Shown: positions 56,941 to 64,000 of the stretch, piece by piece | Layout: each line of letters begins with the position of its first letter | Numbering within the stretch: position 1 is the first letter of the stretch | Notes under the pieces: generated by a model | What the model saw: the letters and a program-made list of their open reading frames with translations, nothing else | Databases searched by the model: none | What the model was told of the DNA's origin: nothing | Made by a program: the position numbers and the translations under genes | Source: a virus | DNA: 64,000 nt | IMG/VR virus record: IMGVR_UViG_3300037421_000032 | Coordinates: 1-64,000 of that record | Strand: one strand, 5' to 3'

Positions 56941-57624
56941 TCATGGAACGTGTTTTGTCAGTAACGCAATTAATGCGACGACCCCAACGACCATGCCTAC
57001 AGCGCCAAAAATCCAACCTGTAAAGTCAGACACGCCCTTTCCGTGGCCCTCGCCACGATCCAATCGACCTTTGAGATCATCGATCTTGTCATTGGTCGCC
57101 TTGCTGTCGGAAATGAACAGCGTTTGAAGCTGCCGCAGGCTTTCCGCAGTCGCCTGCTCGCTTTTATTGATCGCCAGAGAGTTGGACTTGTTCTGCTCGC
57201 TCACAGCCTCCTTTTGCGCTGCAAACGCGGCGGTCACGGCAGTTTGCGCCGCGACGGTAAGCTGGTCGGTACGCTTATCCCGCTCGATGAACTGATTCGA
57301 GACGCCGGAAAACTTCTCATCCGTCACGATGGCGAGCTTATTGATCTCGCTTTTTAGCAATTCGCGCAGGGCTAGTGCGGATGCATCGATTTCCTCTTTC
57401 CGGTTATTTAGGGTCTCCTTCAATGTCATAGCATTAGACTCGACCCCATCAATTCGTATCATCACGACTTCGCGCAGGGCACTAATCTCTCGACGAAGCT
57501 GGTCGGTCGTCAGGGCGGTTGGGTCGGGGACTGGAACTAGCCGGCCGCCCGAACGGTAGCCACGGCGGCCATTATTATCGGCATCTTCTTCATCGAGCTG
57601 GGTGATTTGCCGTCGCGTCGCCAT
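56941..57624 (-). CDS. Coiled-coil membrane protein
   Basis: 227 residues: polar N-terminus, long coiled coil (~40-190, e.g. LRREISALREVVMIRIDGVE), and a C-terminal membrane helix (TGWIFGAVGMVVGVVALIALL). Tail-anchored coiled-coil proteins are common near phage lysis genes. The exact role is unknown. Confidence 0.68.
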   Translation of the reverse strand: MATRRQITQLDEEDADNNGRRGYRSGGRLVPVPDPTALTTDQLRREISALREVVMIRIDGVESNAMTLKETLNNRKEEIDASALALRELLKSEINKLAIVTDEKFSGVSNQFIERDKRTDQLTVAAQTAVTAAFAAQKEAVSEQNKSNSLAINKSEQATAESLRQLQTLFISDSKATNDKIDDLKGRLDRGEGHGKGVSDFTGWIFGAVGMVVGVVALIALLTKHVP

Positions 57625-57636
57625 CTTGGATTTCTC

Positions 57637-57789
57637 CTATCCCGGCCACAGCATCATCGAGACTTTCGTCAGCAAAAGAGCGATGACAATGGCGCCCATA
57701 ACCTCGACGAATATCTGCTCAAATGGCGAGAGTTTGCGCCACCAGTCGCGCCACCAAGCGAAGGCGCTAAGGGTTTGACGGCGGGTCAT
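57637..57789 (-). CDS. 50-residue membrane protein
   Basis: Basic Trp-rich N-terminus (FAWWRDWWRKLSPFEQIF) then one hydrophobic helix (VMGAIVIALLLTKVSMML). Start coupled by ATGA. Holin or antiholin-like in shape, but unassigned. Confidence 0.55.
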   Translation of the reverse strand: MTRRQTLSAFAWWRDWWRKLSPFEQIFVEVMGAIVIALLLTKVSMMLWPG

Positions 57790-58370
57790 TTGGTAGGTTC
57801 CCCCTCCGCATCGTCCGCCTTGCCGTGGCCGATGCGTTCCTGCGCGCGCTTGCGGCCCGTGGGGTTCTGTGCGGCGCCGATCGCAGCGTCGAGGTCAGCG
57901 ACCTGCTTCACAAACCCGGCGACTTCATCGTCGATCTGCGCCTCACGCCGCTTCATAATGTCGAGCGCGGTGCGGTCCTTGATCGTCTGCAAGGTCTGAT
58001 CAACACCCGCCCGCTCAGCCTTGGCGCGATCTAATGAGTTCTGAATGACGACCCGCTGCGTCTGCAATGACGTAACCTTGAGTTGGTCGCTATTGTCGTC
58101 GAGTTGGCCGGAAACTTTGTTGACGTTGCGCGAGACTTGGTTAACGAGTCGTAAGACCTCGGTCTTCGCCTTGACGATCTGGCCGTCCGTGTATTCGCGG
58201 GTTGCGAGCACCGGCCAGTCGAGCTTGACCCAAAGAAAAATGGCGCCCCCGATCGTCATGAAAATGCCGACGCCCGCGCTGATCCCCTTGCCGATCTGCC
58301 ACAGCGTAAGCGGACGGCGCAGCGGATCGGCTTGCCGTTGTCCTCGCTTGCGTGCCGCTTTCTTCGCCAT
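57786..58370 (-). CDS. Membrane-anchored coiled-coil protein (spanin-like shape)
   Basis: 194 residues: basic N-terminus, one membrane helix (ISAGVGIFMTIGGAIFLWVK) and a periplasmic coiled coil (TEVLRLVNQVSRNVNKVSGQ, RVVIQNSLDRAKAERAGVDQ), ending acidic. The shape is that of an inner-membrane spanin, but no matching outer-membrane lipoprotein was found with confidence. Confidence 0.6.
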   Translation of the reverse strand: MAKKAARKRGQRQADPLRRPLTLWQIGKGISAGVGIFMTIGGAIFLWVKLDWPVLATREYTDGQIVKAKTEVLRLVNQVSRNVNKVSGQLDDNSDQLKVTSLQTQRVVIQNSLDRAKAERAGVDQTLQTIKDRTALDIMKRREAQIDDEVAGFVKQVADLDAAIGAAQNPTGRKRAQERIGHGKADDAEGEPTK

Positions 58371-58514: not shown

Positions 58515-59366
58515 TTACTTCGATGCGAGTGTGATCCCGCCCGGCGAGAACATATACCGCAACTCGACGGCATAGAGGTTCCCCATGGTGGTCGTCCCGG
58601 TGAACTTCGCGCCGGCCGCCGGGTCGAACACGTTGGAGAATTCCAGGCCGTTCTTGGCTAATACGATCTTGCCGCTCACGTCGAACACGCCGCCGGTCGG
58701 AGTGCCGGCCGAGTTGAGCTGTTGCCACAGGGCGCCGATTCGCACGCGCGGTGCCCATACGACATCGGCACCACCGACCCCGCCGAAGTTGCCGCTCACT
58801 CCAAACGCCTCGAAACCTGCGCCAATGTAGGTTCGCGGAGCTGCCGCGACGTGCGCGCCGGGTGGCGGGACCGGATTGAACGTCGGGAAGCTGATACTCC
58901 CGAGGCCGATGTTGCCGGCCGCGTTGGCAAGCAGGGTCATCGGATCGACCGACCCGCCTACCCTTGCTTCGCAACCGGCGGACCAGCGGCTTGCCACGCT
59001 CGCAACCCCGATCGTGCTGCCGCCCGGCATGACCGCCGTCACGTCGCCGCTGGAGATGTTGCGGTAGCTCGCGTCGCACTCGCCCGCGTACCAGTGTGCG
59101 GCCGAACCCTTCATGTAGCCGACGACACCGCCGATGTAGCCGCCGTCAGACTTGACGTTGCCGGACACAAGGCTGTTGAGCCCGAGCGCGCTGGTCGAGG
59201 TATTGGCGACCGCGGCCCCGGATTCCAGGCCCACGTAGAGGCCGCCAGTGTCCCAGAGAGTGGCCGGCGTGATCGGGGCCTTGGTGATGAGCGCCGGCAG
59301 ATCCGCAGCCCCAGCGGCGCCCGCAGCCAGCGCAAGCAGTATTCCAGTGATGATAGTCCGTTTCAT
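58515..59366 (-). CDS. Porin/outer-membrane-beta-barrel-like protein (phage-borne)
   Basis: 283 residues from the ATG at 59366 with a perfect AGGAGG. The open frame to 59486 is excluded. Signal peptide (MKRTIITGILLALAAGAAGA), then ADLPALITKAP, a start typical of Bradyrhizobium-type outer-membrane proteins. The body is beta-rich with Gly/Asn turns (GGLYVGLESGA, GGYIGGVVGYM) and ends GNLYAVELRYMFSPGGI, with near-terminal aromatic/Phe residues like outer-membrane barrels. It has its own terminator, so it behaves as an independent cargo gene. It could mask or replace a receptor. Confidence 0.75.
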   Translation of the reverse strand: MKRTIITGILLALAAGAAGAADLPALITKAPITPATLWDTGGLYVGLESGAAVANTSTSALGLNSLVSGNVKSDGGYIGGVVGYMKGSAAHWYAGECDASYRNISSGDVTAVMPGGSTIGVASVASRWSAGCEARVGGSVDPMTLLANAAGNIGLGSISFPTFNPVPPPGAHVAAAPRTYIGAGFEAFGVSGNFGGVGGADVVWAPRVRIGALWQQLNSAGTPTGGVFDVSGKIVLAKNGLEFSNVFDPAAGAKFTGTTTMGNLYAVELRYMFSPGGITLASK

Positions 59367-59512
59367 CGTTCGTCCCTCCTGTTCCGCCCCCTTGGCGGTA
59401 GGGACATTGGGCGCGCTTGCGCGCGCAAAGGCAAGGTAGCGACGACAATGGAATTGCAATGTTTTTACAGTGTGGCTTTTGGGCAACAGAAAACCTCAGC
59501 CGAAGCTGGGGG

Positions 59513-60331: not shown

Positions 60332-60679
60332 TCAGCCGCCCGCGCTCGCGCGGTCCATCCAAGCCTTTTCGTCCGCTGAGAGTGTGCCAGGCGCGACAAG
60401 CGCCTTGGCGACGATGTGCTTGCCTACGACCCGCGGCGGATCGACGTTCTCTCCCTCCGCGACGGGAGGCGACGCGCCGGCCGCCTTTACCAAGTCCGCC
60501 GTCACGGCCTCAAGATGCGGAATGATAGTCGGATCGGTCTTTTCGATTGCCTCGACTGCCTTGCCGCTGGTGGCGGCAAGGTCGGCAACCTTGTCACCGT
60601 GCGCGAGCAGGAACTTTGCGATCGGCACGTACTTGGCCGCGCCTGGAATAAGCCCGATCAGGTTGATGAGGGGGATCAT
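60332..60679 (-). CDS. Lysis-region hypothetical protein
   Basis: 115 residues from the ATG at 60679 (coupled ATGA); the much longer open frame to 61087 is a shadow. An amphipathic N-terminus (IPLINLIGLIPGAAKYVPIA) is followed by helical polar sequence (LEAVTADLVKAAGAS). It follows the holin gene, where a holin regulator might be. Confidence 0.55.
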   Translation of the reverse strand: MIPLINLIGLIPGAAKYVPIAKFLLAHGDKVADLAATSGKAVEAIEKTDPTIIPHLEAVTADLVKAAGASPPVAEGENVDPPRVVGKHIVAKALVAPGTLSADEKAWMDRASAGG

Positions 60680-61002
60680 GCGGCCGGTCTCGTGGCTTGA
60701 ACGACCGGCGCGGGCGCGACCATCTGCACGGCGGGCACGGTCGGATCGGCCGCCACCGCCTTGACCGCGGGCGAGGCGGTCGCGTCGATCTTGACCGTTG
60801 CACCCTGGACCGCCGCCGCGGCGATGACCGCGCTGGAGTCCGTGTGAACCTTGGCGGACCAGGCCGCGACGCCTGCCGTCGCGAGCGAAGCGAGAATGAT
60901 GTTCCAAGTGTCCGTGTCGAAGAACGCTCCCTTGGCCGCGAGATAGGCGGCAAGCGCCGGGATAACGGCGCGCAGGATGCCGGCGAGCTGACTTGAGTTC
61001 AT
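60676..61002 (-). CDS. Putative holin
   Basis: 108 residues. An N-terminal polar start, a helix ILRAVIPALAAYLAAKGAF, a second helix ILASLATAGVAAWSAK, then a long Ala/Val-rich tail. The RAVIPAL-AYLA-KG pattern occurs in alphaproteobacterial phage holins. It directly follows the lipase and endolysin, which supports the role. Confidence 0.65.
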   Translation of the reverse strand: MNSSQLAGILRAVIPALAAYLAAKGAFFDTDTWNIILASLATAGVAAWSAKVHTDSSAVIAAAAVQGATVKIDATASPAVKAVAADPTVPAVQMVAPAPVVQATRPAA

Positions 61003-61691
61003 GTGCTTTTCCTTTCGAGGACAGCATAAGCGGCGGCGATGTCGGCGTGATCGGCGCCGAGCGAATGGCCCGTGAAGATGACCTCATCGACGTCCGCGAT
61101 CAAGGGTTTGATCGCCGCCCAGGCGGCGTCCATCCCGATCACGAAGCCTTCCCACATGCGCCCGAGCCGGTCGTGCATGATGAGGCGCGTGAGCAAAGCC
61201 GGAACGTCGAAGCCGGTCAGATCGCGCAGCCAATCGAATAGGTCGTCGGATCCACGGAAGACGACGAAGGAGCGCCGGCCCTGGCGGCGGATAGCCCACA
61301 CAACGCCGACCGTCGAACTGCTCGCATCCCACGCTTCGGGAGGCGTGCCCGGCTTGGCGTAGATCGCGTTGCAGAGTCGCGCGGCCTCGACATGCGCGGG
61401 ATCGATTCCGGCCGCCTGCGTGCCGGCAACGTAAAGAGGGGCATGATGCCAGCGGAAGATTCCGAGCCCGTCGTTATCCGGCGGATCCGCGCGGACGAAC
61501 GCAAGCGGCGTCGGATGCACGAAGTCAAGCCCGAGCGCCGGGACCGCGAGTGGAAAGTCCGTCACCCGATCGTGCCCGAGCGGACCTGACCGATTACAGT
61601 AGGCGACGCTCTCATCAAGCCCTTTGAGGATATCGGCAAATTGCTGCATTCCTGGCAGGGCTTCCCCGAAGACGATGCGACGCAGGATCAT
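60999..61691 (-). CDS. Class-3-lipase-like esterase with swapped halves (circular permutation)
   Basis: 230 residues from the ATG at 61691, overlapping the endolysin stop. The nucleophile elbow TGHSLGADHA (Ser210) and the oxyanion strand VVFRGSDDLFDWLRDL (~143-158) lie in the second half, whose last ~20 residues end right after the elbow. The parts that normally follow the nucleophile come first: RRIVFGEALPGMQQFADIL (5-22), GHDRVTDFP (Asp region), FVHPTPLAFV and FRWHHAPLYV (His candidates). So the complete domain is present but permuted, with both junctions at gene boundaries. Likely attacks lipids or ester bonds at lysis. Activity unproven. Confidence 0.78.
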   Translation of the reverse strand: MILRRIVFGEALPGMQQFADILKGLDESVAYCNRSGPLGHDRVTDFPLAVPALGLDFVHPTPLAFVRADPPDNDGLGIFRWHHAPLYVAGTQAAGIDPAHVEAARLCNAIYAKPGTPPEAWDASSSTVGVVWAIRRQGRRSFVVFRGSDDLFDWLRDLTGFDVPALLTRLIMHDRLGRMWEGFVIGMDAAWAAIKPLIADVDEVIFTGHSLGADHADIAAAYAVLERKST

Positions 61692-62239
61692 GCGGTCGGC
61701 ACCATCTTGAGCGCCGCGGCCTCGATTTCTTCCGAGCGGCGAATCCAATCTTTGCCGAAGCGGCCGAATGTGGAGATCATCCGATAGACCGCCTCGCGTC
61801 GGGCTGTAAACGCCTTGATTTCGTCGGCGTCGACAATTTTCGCCGCCGCCGCTTCGGTCAGCGGCCCCCATTGCCCATCGGCTGGAATGCCGAGCGTATA
61901 CTGCATGATCTTGATCGCCTCGAATGACCCCTGGTTGACGGCGTCGTCGAAGAACACAAGGTCGAAGCCCGGCGGGAGCTTAGGACAATGAGGCTCCCAA
62001 TAGCTCGTGCGATAGATCGTGAAGCCTTCATCCTGCGTCATCTGACGCACATCACGCACAGGCAGTCCCTGTGCTTTACGCCAATGGTCATATTCTCTCT
62101 GAATGATGCCGTTGAAGGTCTTACCCCCTGGGTCGCCGGGATCGTTGCTGAAATTTCTCGGGTTGCTCCAGTCTTGCGGAACGGGAGCTTCTTGTCGAAG
62201 CGTGAAGGGAAGGCAGATTAGGAAGCGGTCCTCGGCCAT
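61688..62239 (-). CDS. Endolysin: GH108 muramidase with C-terminal peptidoglycan-binding domain
   Basis: 183 residues. FTLRQEAPVPQDWSNPRNFS (candidate catalytic Glu17), then NDPGDPGGKTFNGIIQREYD, and FDLVFFDDAVNQGSFEAIK are hallmarks of glycosyl-hydrolase-108 phage lysozymes, followed by a PG_binding_3-like end (LGIPADGQWGPLTEAA...). No signal peptide, so export depends on the holin. Heads the lipase-holin block (ATGA overlap). Confidence 0.87.
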   Translation of the reverse strand: MAEDRFLICLPFTLRQEAPVPQDWSNPRNFSNDPGDPGGKTFNGIIQREYDHWRKAQGLPVRDVRQMTQDEGFTIYRTSYWEPHCPKLPPGFDLVFFDDAVNQGSFEAIKIMQYTLGIPADGQWGPLTEAAAAKIVDADEIKAFTARREAVYRMISTFGRFGKDWIRRSEEIEAAALKMVPTA

Positions 62240-62249
62240 GCGCTACTCC

Positions 62250-62486
62250 CTATTTCTCGATCTTCGGCAGTTGCGAGGGCTGTACGTTGGACTCAAGTTC
62301 CTTGATCCGAGCCTGTAACTGCTCAATCTGCTTGTTCGCCCCGATCAATTGCTGTGTGCACTGTAACCCGGCGTTTATTTCCTGCATGAGTTTGGAGCCC
62401 AGCGCCTGCTCGGCAGGGGACTGCTGTGGTTGCTGCGCCAAGGCAGGGGTGATCGATAATAGAAATACCAATGGTGAGTATTTCAT
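62250..62486 (-). CDS. Secreted coiled-coil protein of the lysis region
   Basis: 78 residues from the ATG at 62486 (overlaps the fibre stop, TGATG). A signal peptide (YSPLVFLLSITPALAQ) and a C-terminal coiled coil (QQLIGANKQIEQLQARIKEL). Periplasmic; could act with the endolysin or as a spanin-like part, but there is no lipobox. Confidence 0.6.
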   Translation of the reverse strand: MKYSPLVFLLSITPALAQQPQQSPAEQALGSKLMQEINAGLQCTQQLIGANKQIEQLQARIKELESNVQPSQLPKIEK

Positions 62487-64000
62487 CAGCAAGTTCCTCC
62501 TGTCTTGATCCCGCCTGTAAATATCAATGTGCAGTCTGCCGCCCCGCCTGCTGCCCGAACGGTCGTTGTCACAGTCTGCCCGTTGTTGCCCGCCGCAACA
62601 AATTTAACGTTCGCACTGATACTTCCGATGCCGGGATCGGTCAGCGTGCCGACGCCGACGCCACCGCTTGGGAAGAAGCGTGTCGAGATGTTAATGCCGA
62701 GAGTCGTAAGTGGCGTCGTATAGACATCCAAGGCAGCGCCGCCGGCTGTCGATGACCATGTTTCTTGAGCGGTTGAGACAATACCGGACCCATTATAGTA
62801 GACGGTTCCGAAGCCGTACCAGAAGTTCGATCCAAGAATATCCCCACTCTGCGTCGCGGTCGGACTGGCAATTGTTCCCCGAGACGCGAAATAGTTTACG
62901 GAGTTTGATGCGCCTGTTCCAGCGGCGAACATCGCGATTCTCGTTGGAGCACCGTCCACATTGGCTATCGCGGCAACAATGTTGGAGCCTAAGCCAGCCG
63001 GGTTGCTTGGTAGGGTGCCGGAGTTAGCACTCGCACTGATGAAATAGACCGGCGCCGTCGATCCAAACATGACGCCGCTGTTATTGATAGTCGCAACAGT
63101 CGTAGCGCCGTTATTGCCGCGCTTGAACACGAACGCATCGGTTGTGCCGTTGCCGGTCGTGGTCTGGAAGGTCAGTTGTGTCCCGGTCGTTCCGCTGCCG
63201 CCAATAAGCAGCGGCGACGTGACAGAGACTGGACCGGACAGCGCCCCCGCCTGGGTGAGTACAAGCCGCGCGACATTGCCGTTCGCGTCGCTATTCAGAA
63301 TTTGATAAGTGTCCGTGGCCCCGGCGTTCTGCGCGTACCAGACATTATTTCCTCCGTCTTGGTAAGCCATATTAGCGTTCTTGCCGGAAGGAGCGTTCAA
63401 ATTCAGGCTCGAATTATTCGCGACGGCGCCGGAAAGGTGGAACGAGACGACGGGGACATAGCCGCCAGCGTTGAGCTGCGCTGAAAATACGAGGACATTA
63501 TCAAGCGACGTTGAGGTTCCCTGTCTCGGCTGCAACTCTGCAATCCAATCCAACGCCTGCGACGCGGCGGCGGTCGTATTCCAGACCTGGCCGATCCAAT
63601 GTGCGCGGGGGGACCATTGCTGTGCATTATTCGCAGCAGCAGTCAGGTTCTCCAAGACGAGGCGATCCGTCGAGACTGCGCCAATGTTGGCACCCAAACT
63701 CGTGATGAGTCCCGAGGGGGCGATGGAGACATTCGGCGCGTTGATGATATTACCACTGATCGTGAAGTTCGTCAGGTCGAGGATATGGTTGATCGGAGTT
63801 GCCGCCGTGTCGGCGGACAGGAATGTCGATGTGCTTGCGGTCGGGAACTGACCGTATAGCTTCGACAGAGAGATAATATTTTTCCATTCACCTCCAGCGG
63901 TATTGCTAGCAGCGAGAATGGCCGCGTCCAAAGTGGCGGCAACCCCGTTTTTTGTGTTGGTGATTGACACGCCGATGCGCCGGGTCGGGTTAACCCCCGA
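62486..64000 (-). CDS. Tail-fibre-like protein, partial (5' end outside window)
   Basis: At least 494 residues (GTG at 63970), and the frame is open to the right edge, so the true start is probably beyond it. Ser/Thr/Asn/Gly-rich beta protein with motifs QQWSPRAHW, ELQPRQG, APSGKNANM, LNSDANGN shared with the secreted fibre at the left edge, then VSVTSPLLIGG and a C-terminal beta region. Probably the C-terminal portion of a long fibre. Located directly upstream of the lysis cassette. Confidence 0.75.
   Translation of the reverse strand, partial: SGVNPTRRIGVSITNTKNGVAATLDAAILAASNTAGGEWKNIISLSKLYGQFPTASTSTFLSADTAATPINHILDLTNFTISGNIINAPNVSIAPSGLITSLGANIGAVSTDRLVLENLTAAANNAQQWSPRAHWIGQVWNTTAAASQALDWIAELQPRQGTSTSLDNVLVFSAQLNAGGYVPVVSFHLSGAVANNSSLNLNAPSGKNANMAYQDGGNNVWYAQNAGATDTYQILNSDANGNVARLVLTQAGALSGPVSVTSPLLIGGSGTTGTQLTFQTTTGNGTTDAFVFKRGNNGATTVATINNSGVMFGSTAPVYFISASANSGTLPSNPAGLGSNIVAAIANVDGAPTRIAMFAAGTGASNSVNYFASRGTIASPTATQSGDILGSNFWYGFGTVYYNGSGIVSTAQETWSSTAGGAALDVYTTPLTTLGINISTRFFPSGGVGVGTLTDPGIGSISANVKFVAAGNNGQTVTTTVRAAGGAADCTLIFTGGIKTGGTC

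Follow-up and report, generated by a model that had tools for sequence, protein, structure and literature searches.

A circularly permuted class-3 lipase homologue among the lysis genes of a phage

The lipase gene and its surroundings

The window analysed here comprises the first 64,000 nucleotides of the IMG/VR virus record IMGVR_UViG_3300037421_000032, which is 64,450 bp long in total. Its minus strand carries a compact lysis cassette, in which an ORF of 230 amino acids lies between an endolysin gene and a holin-like gene. The features of the cassette and of the ORF are as follows:

62250–62492, minus strand: 80-aa protein upstream of the endolysin, with an apparent signal peptide and a coiled coil but no lipobox
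61688–62239, minus strand: endolysin of glycosyl hydrolase family 108 (GH108), overlapping the lipase start by 4 bp (61688–61691)
60999–61691, minus strand: circularly permuted putative class-3 lipase P0001, 230 aa, assigned from its motifs, Lipase_3 match, rotation scan and structural model
61416–61691, minus strand: residues 1–92 of the lipase, corresponding to the ancestral C-terminal half (VVFG-type strand, Asp region, His region)
61569–61571, minus strand: codon of Asp41, predicted catalytic acid (GHDRVTD), invariant in the permuted and canonical alignments
61446–61448, minus strand: codon of His82, predicted catalytic base (FRWHH), likewise invariant in both alignments
61401–61415, minus strand: residues 93–97, approximate linker between the ancestral C- and N-termini, lying between helix 84–93 and helix 98–109 of the model
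60999–61400, minus strand: residues 98–230 and the stop codon, corresponding to the ancestral N-terminal half, whose last element is the helix past the nucleophile elbow GHSLGA
61062–61064, minus strand: codon of Ser210, predicted nucleophile (GHSLG), invariant in both alignments
60676–61002, minus strand: holin similar to Phage_holin_10 and Pam3 gp28 (26.0 bits, just under the 27-bit cut-off), overlapping the lipase stop by 4 bp (60999–61002)
60332–60679, minus strand: 115-aa ORF with no assigned function, next in the cassette, with a 4-bp overlap with the holin

Both overlaps of the lipase gene, on the endolysin side and on the holin side, consist of the four bases ATGA. When the lipase ORF was compared with Pfam and PHROGs, Lipase_3 (PF01764) and PHROG 21992 were the sole families reported. 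In the native chain, residues 142–226 align to positions 1–87 of the 140 positions of the Lipase_3 profile with 28.3 bits. Rotating the chain at residue 92 yields an unbroken match to positions 1–118 with 36.4 bits, and both scores pass the Lipase_3 gathering score of 22 bits.

Evidence for a circular permutation

An earlier reading of this DNA, made from the sequence only, had proposed a class-3 lipase whose C-terminal half precedes its N-terminal half. The motifs on which it relied are all present in the ORF in the order described. The canonical linear order of such enzymes, GxSxG followed by Asp and then His, is absent from the native chain and is restored only by rotation. Because Asp41 and His82 precede Ser210, the protein is classified here as a permuted derivative instead of an ordinary member of Lipase_3. 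A profile built exclusively from canonical relatives gave a best single match of 90.1 bits to the native sequence vs 176.5 bits to the sequence rotated at residue 97. With this profile, the best rotations of all five permuted proteins described below fell at residues 94–100, the four other than the window protein having their best cuts at 97–99, and shuffled sequences scored zero in the rotation scan. In tblastn searches, query residues 2–92 matched canonical relatives downstream of the match to residues ~100–223, and the rotated sequence could be aligned end to end with homologues of normal order.

Direct tblastn with the window protein found no relatives among cultured phages and plasmids, and single-sequence pattern scans of IMG/VR and GTDB likewise returned none. 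A weak match to Tsukamurella phage TPA2 was rejected as an antisense chance match. Relatives were first reached through a degenerate DNA pattern for GHDxVTDxPxx[h]P, and afterwards through proteins and alignments; the matches of the degenerate pattern in genome contigs were mostly due to chance and were discarded. A half-profile scan of the fetched loci recovered 80 frames with the N-terminal half before the C-terminal half vs four in the reversed order (the window, L173, L174 and L183). A fifth permuted protein was detected by scanning viral contigs with the permuted alignment, in L187 and L188, which come from two assemblies and are identical over 12,672 bp. After removal of duplicates, the family comprised 59 canonical and five permuted sequences, so that the reversed arrangement is not the standard topology of the family. 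The sequence-only reading had left it to be settled whether the order is ancestral or unique. It appears to be derived, as discussed below, but it is not unique to this phage, being shared by a small clade.

Besides the window, there are thus four further distinct permuted proteins, found at ~55% identity on five other IMG/VR contigs, with a common cut point and with pairwise identities among the permuted members of 53–68%. No permuted copy was found in 397 order-level genomes around a Xanthobacteraceae genome with the window protein as query, nor in 385 class-level alphaproteobacterial genomes around a Xanthobacteraceae genome with the permuted profile. Two observations concern the canonical family. 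The contig IMGVR_UViG_3300031251_000052 encodes two different canonical lipases (L156 and L160) far apart on one phage contig. In genome G1112, a 115-aa frame (L120; G1112:C4, 221083–221241) matches the N-terminal part of the lipase only; the same genome also has a full canonical copy, and the fragment is probably what remains of a degraded prophage copy.

As the window comes from an IMG/VR virus record, we considered whether a collapsed or chimeric repeat could have produced the swapped order. The probability of such an assembly artefact is practically negligible, because the five distinct permuted proteins, cut at the same point, span six contigs and because one of the loci is identical in two assemblies.

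Phylogeny, selection and origin

A maximum-likelihood tree was inferred from 62 sequences, of which five were permuted proteins in rotated form and 57 were canonical rows. The five permuted proteins form one clade with a support of 100/99, which requires a single change. The nearest canonical lineage to this clade was not resolved in the tree. Trees of either half alone recover the same permuted clade, with SH-aLRT values of 98 and 98. As the permuted clade is single and is recovered by each half separately, one derived permutation event is the simplest reading. The permuted order would be derived relative to the canonical one, in that the canonical group aligns with solved class-3 lipases without any rotation, although the root is not independently fixed.

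Synonymous and non-synonymous divergence indicates that the permuted genes are maintained. In pairs of permuted genes dN is about 0.25–0.45 vs a dS of 1.0–2.1 or at saturation, and dN lies well under dS in every pair with measurable dS, which corresponds to purifying selection. Both the open frame and the purifying selection continue through the permutation junction, which also argues against an assembly artefact.

A different origin of the same gene order would be the independent fusion of two genes, one encoding a C-terminal and the other an N-terminal lipase fragment, instead of the permutation of one gene. Isolated N-terminal halves do occur, for example the 115-aa frame of L120, but no stand-alone C-terminal half was found in the half-profile scan of the fetched loci. 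The two halves also add up to a single complete domain, with hardly any of it lost or duplicated, and the tree of each half recovers one and the same permuted clade. Both halves are consistent with one shared history, and we consider an independent fusion very improbable.

Circular permutations usually start from a duplicated gene whose copies are joined by read-through and then trimmed of their outer halves. As the sequence-only reading had proposed, such a tandem duplication with later trimming is a plausible origin for the permuted lipase. Duplicated, tandem or fused lipase intermediates were looked for and none was found. In a variant of this route, both deletions could have been internal, with the original start and stop sites kept, which would fit the 4-bp overlaps retained in the window.

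Predicted structure

Structure prediction had been suggested as a check of the proposed permutation, and it returned a high-confidence model with the elements of a class-3 lipase in rotated order. AlphaFold2 was given the native permuted sequence, together with an alignment of four permuted homologues and half-fragments of canonical relatives. The resulting model has a pLDDT of 93.5 and a pTM of 0.91, and the values for the canonical relative L048 are 93.1 and 0.91. The order of helices and strands in the permuted model is an exact rotation of that in the L048 model, begun at the strand past the nucleophile-elbow helix. The new ends of the permuted protein map to the loop between helix 108–122 and strand 129–133 of the canonical model.

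Foldseek, which keeps chain order, aligned the canonical model with solved class-3 lipases over ~195–260 columns, which is most of the chain, with TMq values of up to 0.68. The permuted model also matched class-3 lipases first, with the partial coverage that a permutant should show: mostly ~120–170 columns (one half), at TMq values of at most 0.42. No entry in BFVD aligned well over the full chain. The permuted protein is accordingly modelled with the core fold of a class-3 lipase.

Lysis modules of permuted and canonical lipases

Each of the five permuted genes is accompanied, within ~3 kb and on its own strand, by endolysin-like and holin-like genes. The endolysin-like neighbours include GH108 proteins (window, L173 and L187), M15 peptidases (L173 and L183) and a PG_binding-domain protein (L174). 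In L173 and L187, a gene resembling those of outer-membrane proteins separates the lipase from the holin and endolysin. Such a gene, with a signal peptide, is found near the lysis genes at window positions 58515–59369 (minus strand), L173:4991–5797 and L187:5183–5995, and there was no Pfam match in the two copies tested.

Canonical-order lipases with equal 4-bp overlaps also adjoin lysis genes in many alphaproteobacterial phages. In L087/G218, a peptidoglycan-binding protein, a lipase and a holin-like gene follow one another in the same order as in the window and with 4-bp overlaps at both joints. A set of 15 query proteins detected endolysin- or holin-like genes near at least 18 canonical loci, which is a minimum given the small size of the set; near many canonical relatives it detected no lysis gene. 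In other permuted members, the 4-bp overlaps are missing on one or both sides. Since canonical relatives have the same slot and overlaps and some permuted members lack them, slot and overlaps are independent of the permutation. The ATGA overlaps to endolysin and holin, which the sequence-only reading had linked to the new chain ends, are therefore real but mark the slot and not the ends. A lipase in this lysis slot is not itself unusual. Counts of protein families across 100 immediate neighbours varied too widely to be informative alone.

Near the lipase in L087 (470–1378) and L174 (2725–3606) lies a gene for a protein of ~300 aa that ends in a peptidoglycan-binding domain and whose N-terminal region matches nothing in Pfam; this protein possibly represents an undescribed type of endolysin. 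Seemingly related HExxE-motif proteins with no assigned function are located beside canonical lipases at L027:2182–2910 and L091:5858–6547.

The window endolysin is 59% identical to that of L187. The major capsid protein of the window, which shares ~40% identity with its counterparts in phiV10-like podoviruses and some Caulobacter phages, had no match in the other permuted records, an empty answer that by itself proves little. A common phage descent of the permuted carriers is accordingly not supported. The related endolysins and the unmatched capsid protein tentatively suggest that the lysis modules move between phages.

Possible function of the permuted lipase

Ser210, Asp41 and His82 are invariant in the four aligned permuted proteins, as are their equivalents in 17 canonical sequences. 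This conservation bears on the possibility that the protein is a catalytically dead lipase fold that assists the lysis proteins structurally or as a regulator. Some proteins of class-3 lipase kinship are signalling proteins, for example plant EDS1 and PAD4, which were among the Foldseek matches of the canonical model. The invariant Ser, Asp and His in both alignments and the purifying selection on the permuted genes speak against such a role, which we regard as improbable.

The lipase has no predicted hydrophobic segment, lipobox or visible signal peptide, and its model opens directly on a core strand. A spanin-type anchor, either a lipobox or a transmembrane segment, is thus absent from it, and a crude scan of the lysis cassette revealed no convincing lipobox gene. 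With no convincing lipobox protein in the cassette, the lipase could potentially disrupt the outer membrane in place of a spanin. Two candidates for spanin-like proteins are encoded downstream of the lysis genes (window 57786–58370 and 56941–57624, minus strand), each with a coiled coil and a single membrane segment; the latter is resembled by L173:7028–7537.

The favoured explanation is that P0001 is a natural circular permutant of a class-3 alpha/beta-hydrolase that has an intact triad and serves in a phage lysis module. We consider this probable, with activity and lysis role presumed. The proposal of a C-half-then-N-half class-3 lipase within a lysis cassette is borne out by sequence, phylogeny and structure prediction; we infer the enzymatic activity, substrate and lysis role of the permuted lipase, the last from gene position. 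The cut in the class-3 lipase chain would lie in the loop that leads from the nucleophile-elbow helix to the following core strand, with a short linker joining the old termini. A single such event most likely founded a small phage clade, which would later have spread among unrelated phages within the lysis module. The protein most likely folds to a normal lipase core with the Ser210-Asp41-His82 triad intact. Lacking a secretion signal, it would build up in the cytoplasm alongside the endolysin and may then be released by the holin; this holin-dependent release, like the duplication-and-loss origin, is a conjecture of the model. Once released, it could hydrolyse (phospho)lipid esters of the membrane and help to break the inner or outer membrane while the endolysin removes peptidoglycan.

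The fold could also be correct and the function be a different one. The enzyme might travel with the late genes and de-esterify exopolysaccharide, LPS or host lipids, or act after lysis. In two permuted loci the lipase lies behind the outer-membrane-protein-like gene instead of between endolysin and holin, many canonical loci had no lysis gene detected with the queries used, and a GDSL lipase in the lysis cassette of a Pseudomonas phage has been proposed to target exopolysaccharide (PMC12173070). We nevertheless consider a non-lysis role rather unlikely, given the closeness of endolysin- or holin-like genes to every one of the five permuted genes and to at least 18 canonical loci. The lipases of the window and of L087 sit between a peptidoglycan-acting or peptidoglycan-binding protein and a holin with 4-bp overlaps on both sides, and the absence of a visible signal peptide also weighs against it.

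The significance of the permuted lipase is twofold. Natural circular permutations of catalytic cores are uncommon, and the permuted lipase represents a rare case of a shuffled enzyme core. Five natural permutants can be set directly against dozens of canonical homologues that resemble them in size and genomic context, a comparison that serves as a natural experiment on the order of folding and the placing of the chain ends. In a survey of phage genomes, about 13% lacked a recognisable spanin, and how such phages get through the outer membrane is not known (PMC6139136). A lipase that recurs next to the endolysin and holin genes of alphaproteobacterial phages is a concrete and testable candidate for spanin-less passage of the outer membrane. 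That a selected core permutant breaks the outer membrane in phages without recognisable spanins, and that the canonical family does likewise in many uncultured alphaproteobacterial phages, is a tentative proposal that we hold to be possible but doubtful.

Comparison with known systems

A search of open-access papers turned up no previous report of a class-3 lipase permuted in nature. Within that literature, the suggestion that a permuted alpha/beta-hydrolase as a Gram-negative lysis factor is undescribed holds for the permuted class-3 lipase, but a lipase in a Gram-negative lysis cassette is already known. A GDSL lipase lies beside holin and endolysin in the lysis cassette of a Pseudomonas syringae phage (PMC12173070). 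That enzyme has a carbohydrate-binding domain, does not belong to class 3 and has not been reported as permuted.

With solved class-3 lipases (PF01764), such as those of Rhizomucor miehei (3TGL/4TGL) and the mono- and diacylglycerol lipase of Aspergillus oryzae (5XK2), the permuted protein shares the predicted core fold and the GHSLG elbow. Its profile match is significant, and Asp and His lie at the expected place of the rotated chain. Unlike in these enzymes, the chain is opened past the nucleophile-elbow helix and closed at the old ends, which places the nucleophile 20 residues from the C-terminus, with Asp and His before it. Canonical lipases of alphaproteobacterial phages and prophages (L087/G218, L047, L027 and L122–L130) share ~20–45% identity per half, are of the same size and often occupy the same lysis slot with 4-bp overlaps, but have their halves in normal order. 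PHROG 21992 is the nearest named phage family to these canonical-order lipases.

Mycobacteriophage Lysin B (LysB) is likewise a serine esterase encoded in a lysis cassette beside endolysin and holin. Published descriptions set it apart by its mycolic-acid hosts and its normal topology. Natural rearrangements within the alpha/beta-hydrolase superfamily have been described for the peripheral strands 1 and 2 (PMC11878206). Strand order is altered in those cases too, whereas the lipase described here is permuted within its core, beside the nucleophile elbow. Circularly permuted NlpC/P60 enzymes also have their nucleophile moved near the C-terminal end (PMC3142127), but they are papain-like cysteine enzymes of a fold unrelated to that of the permuted lipase.
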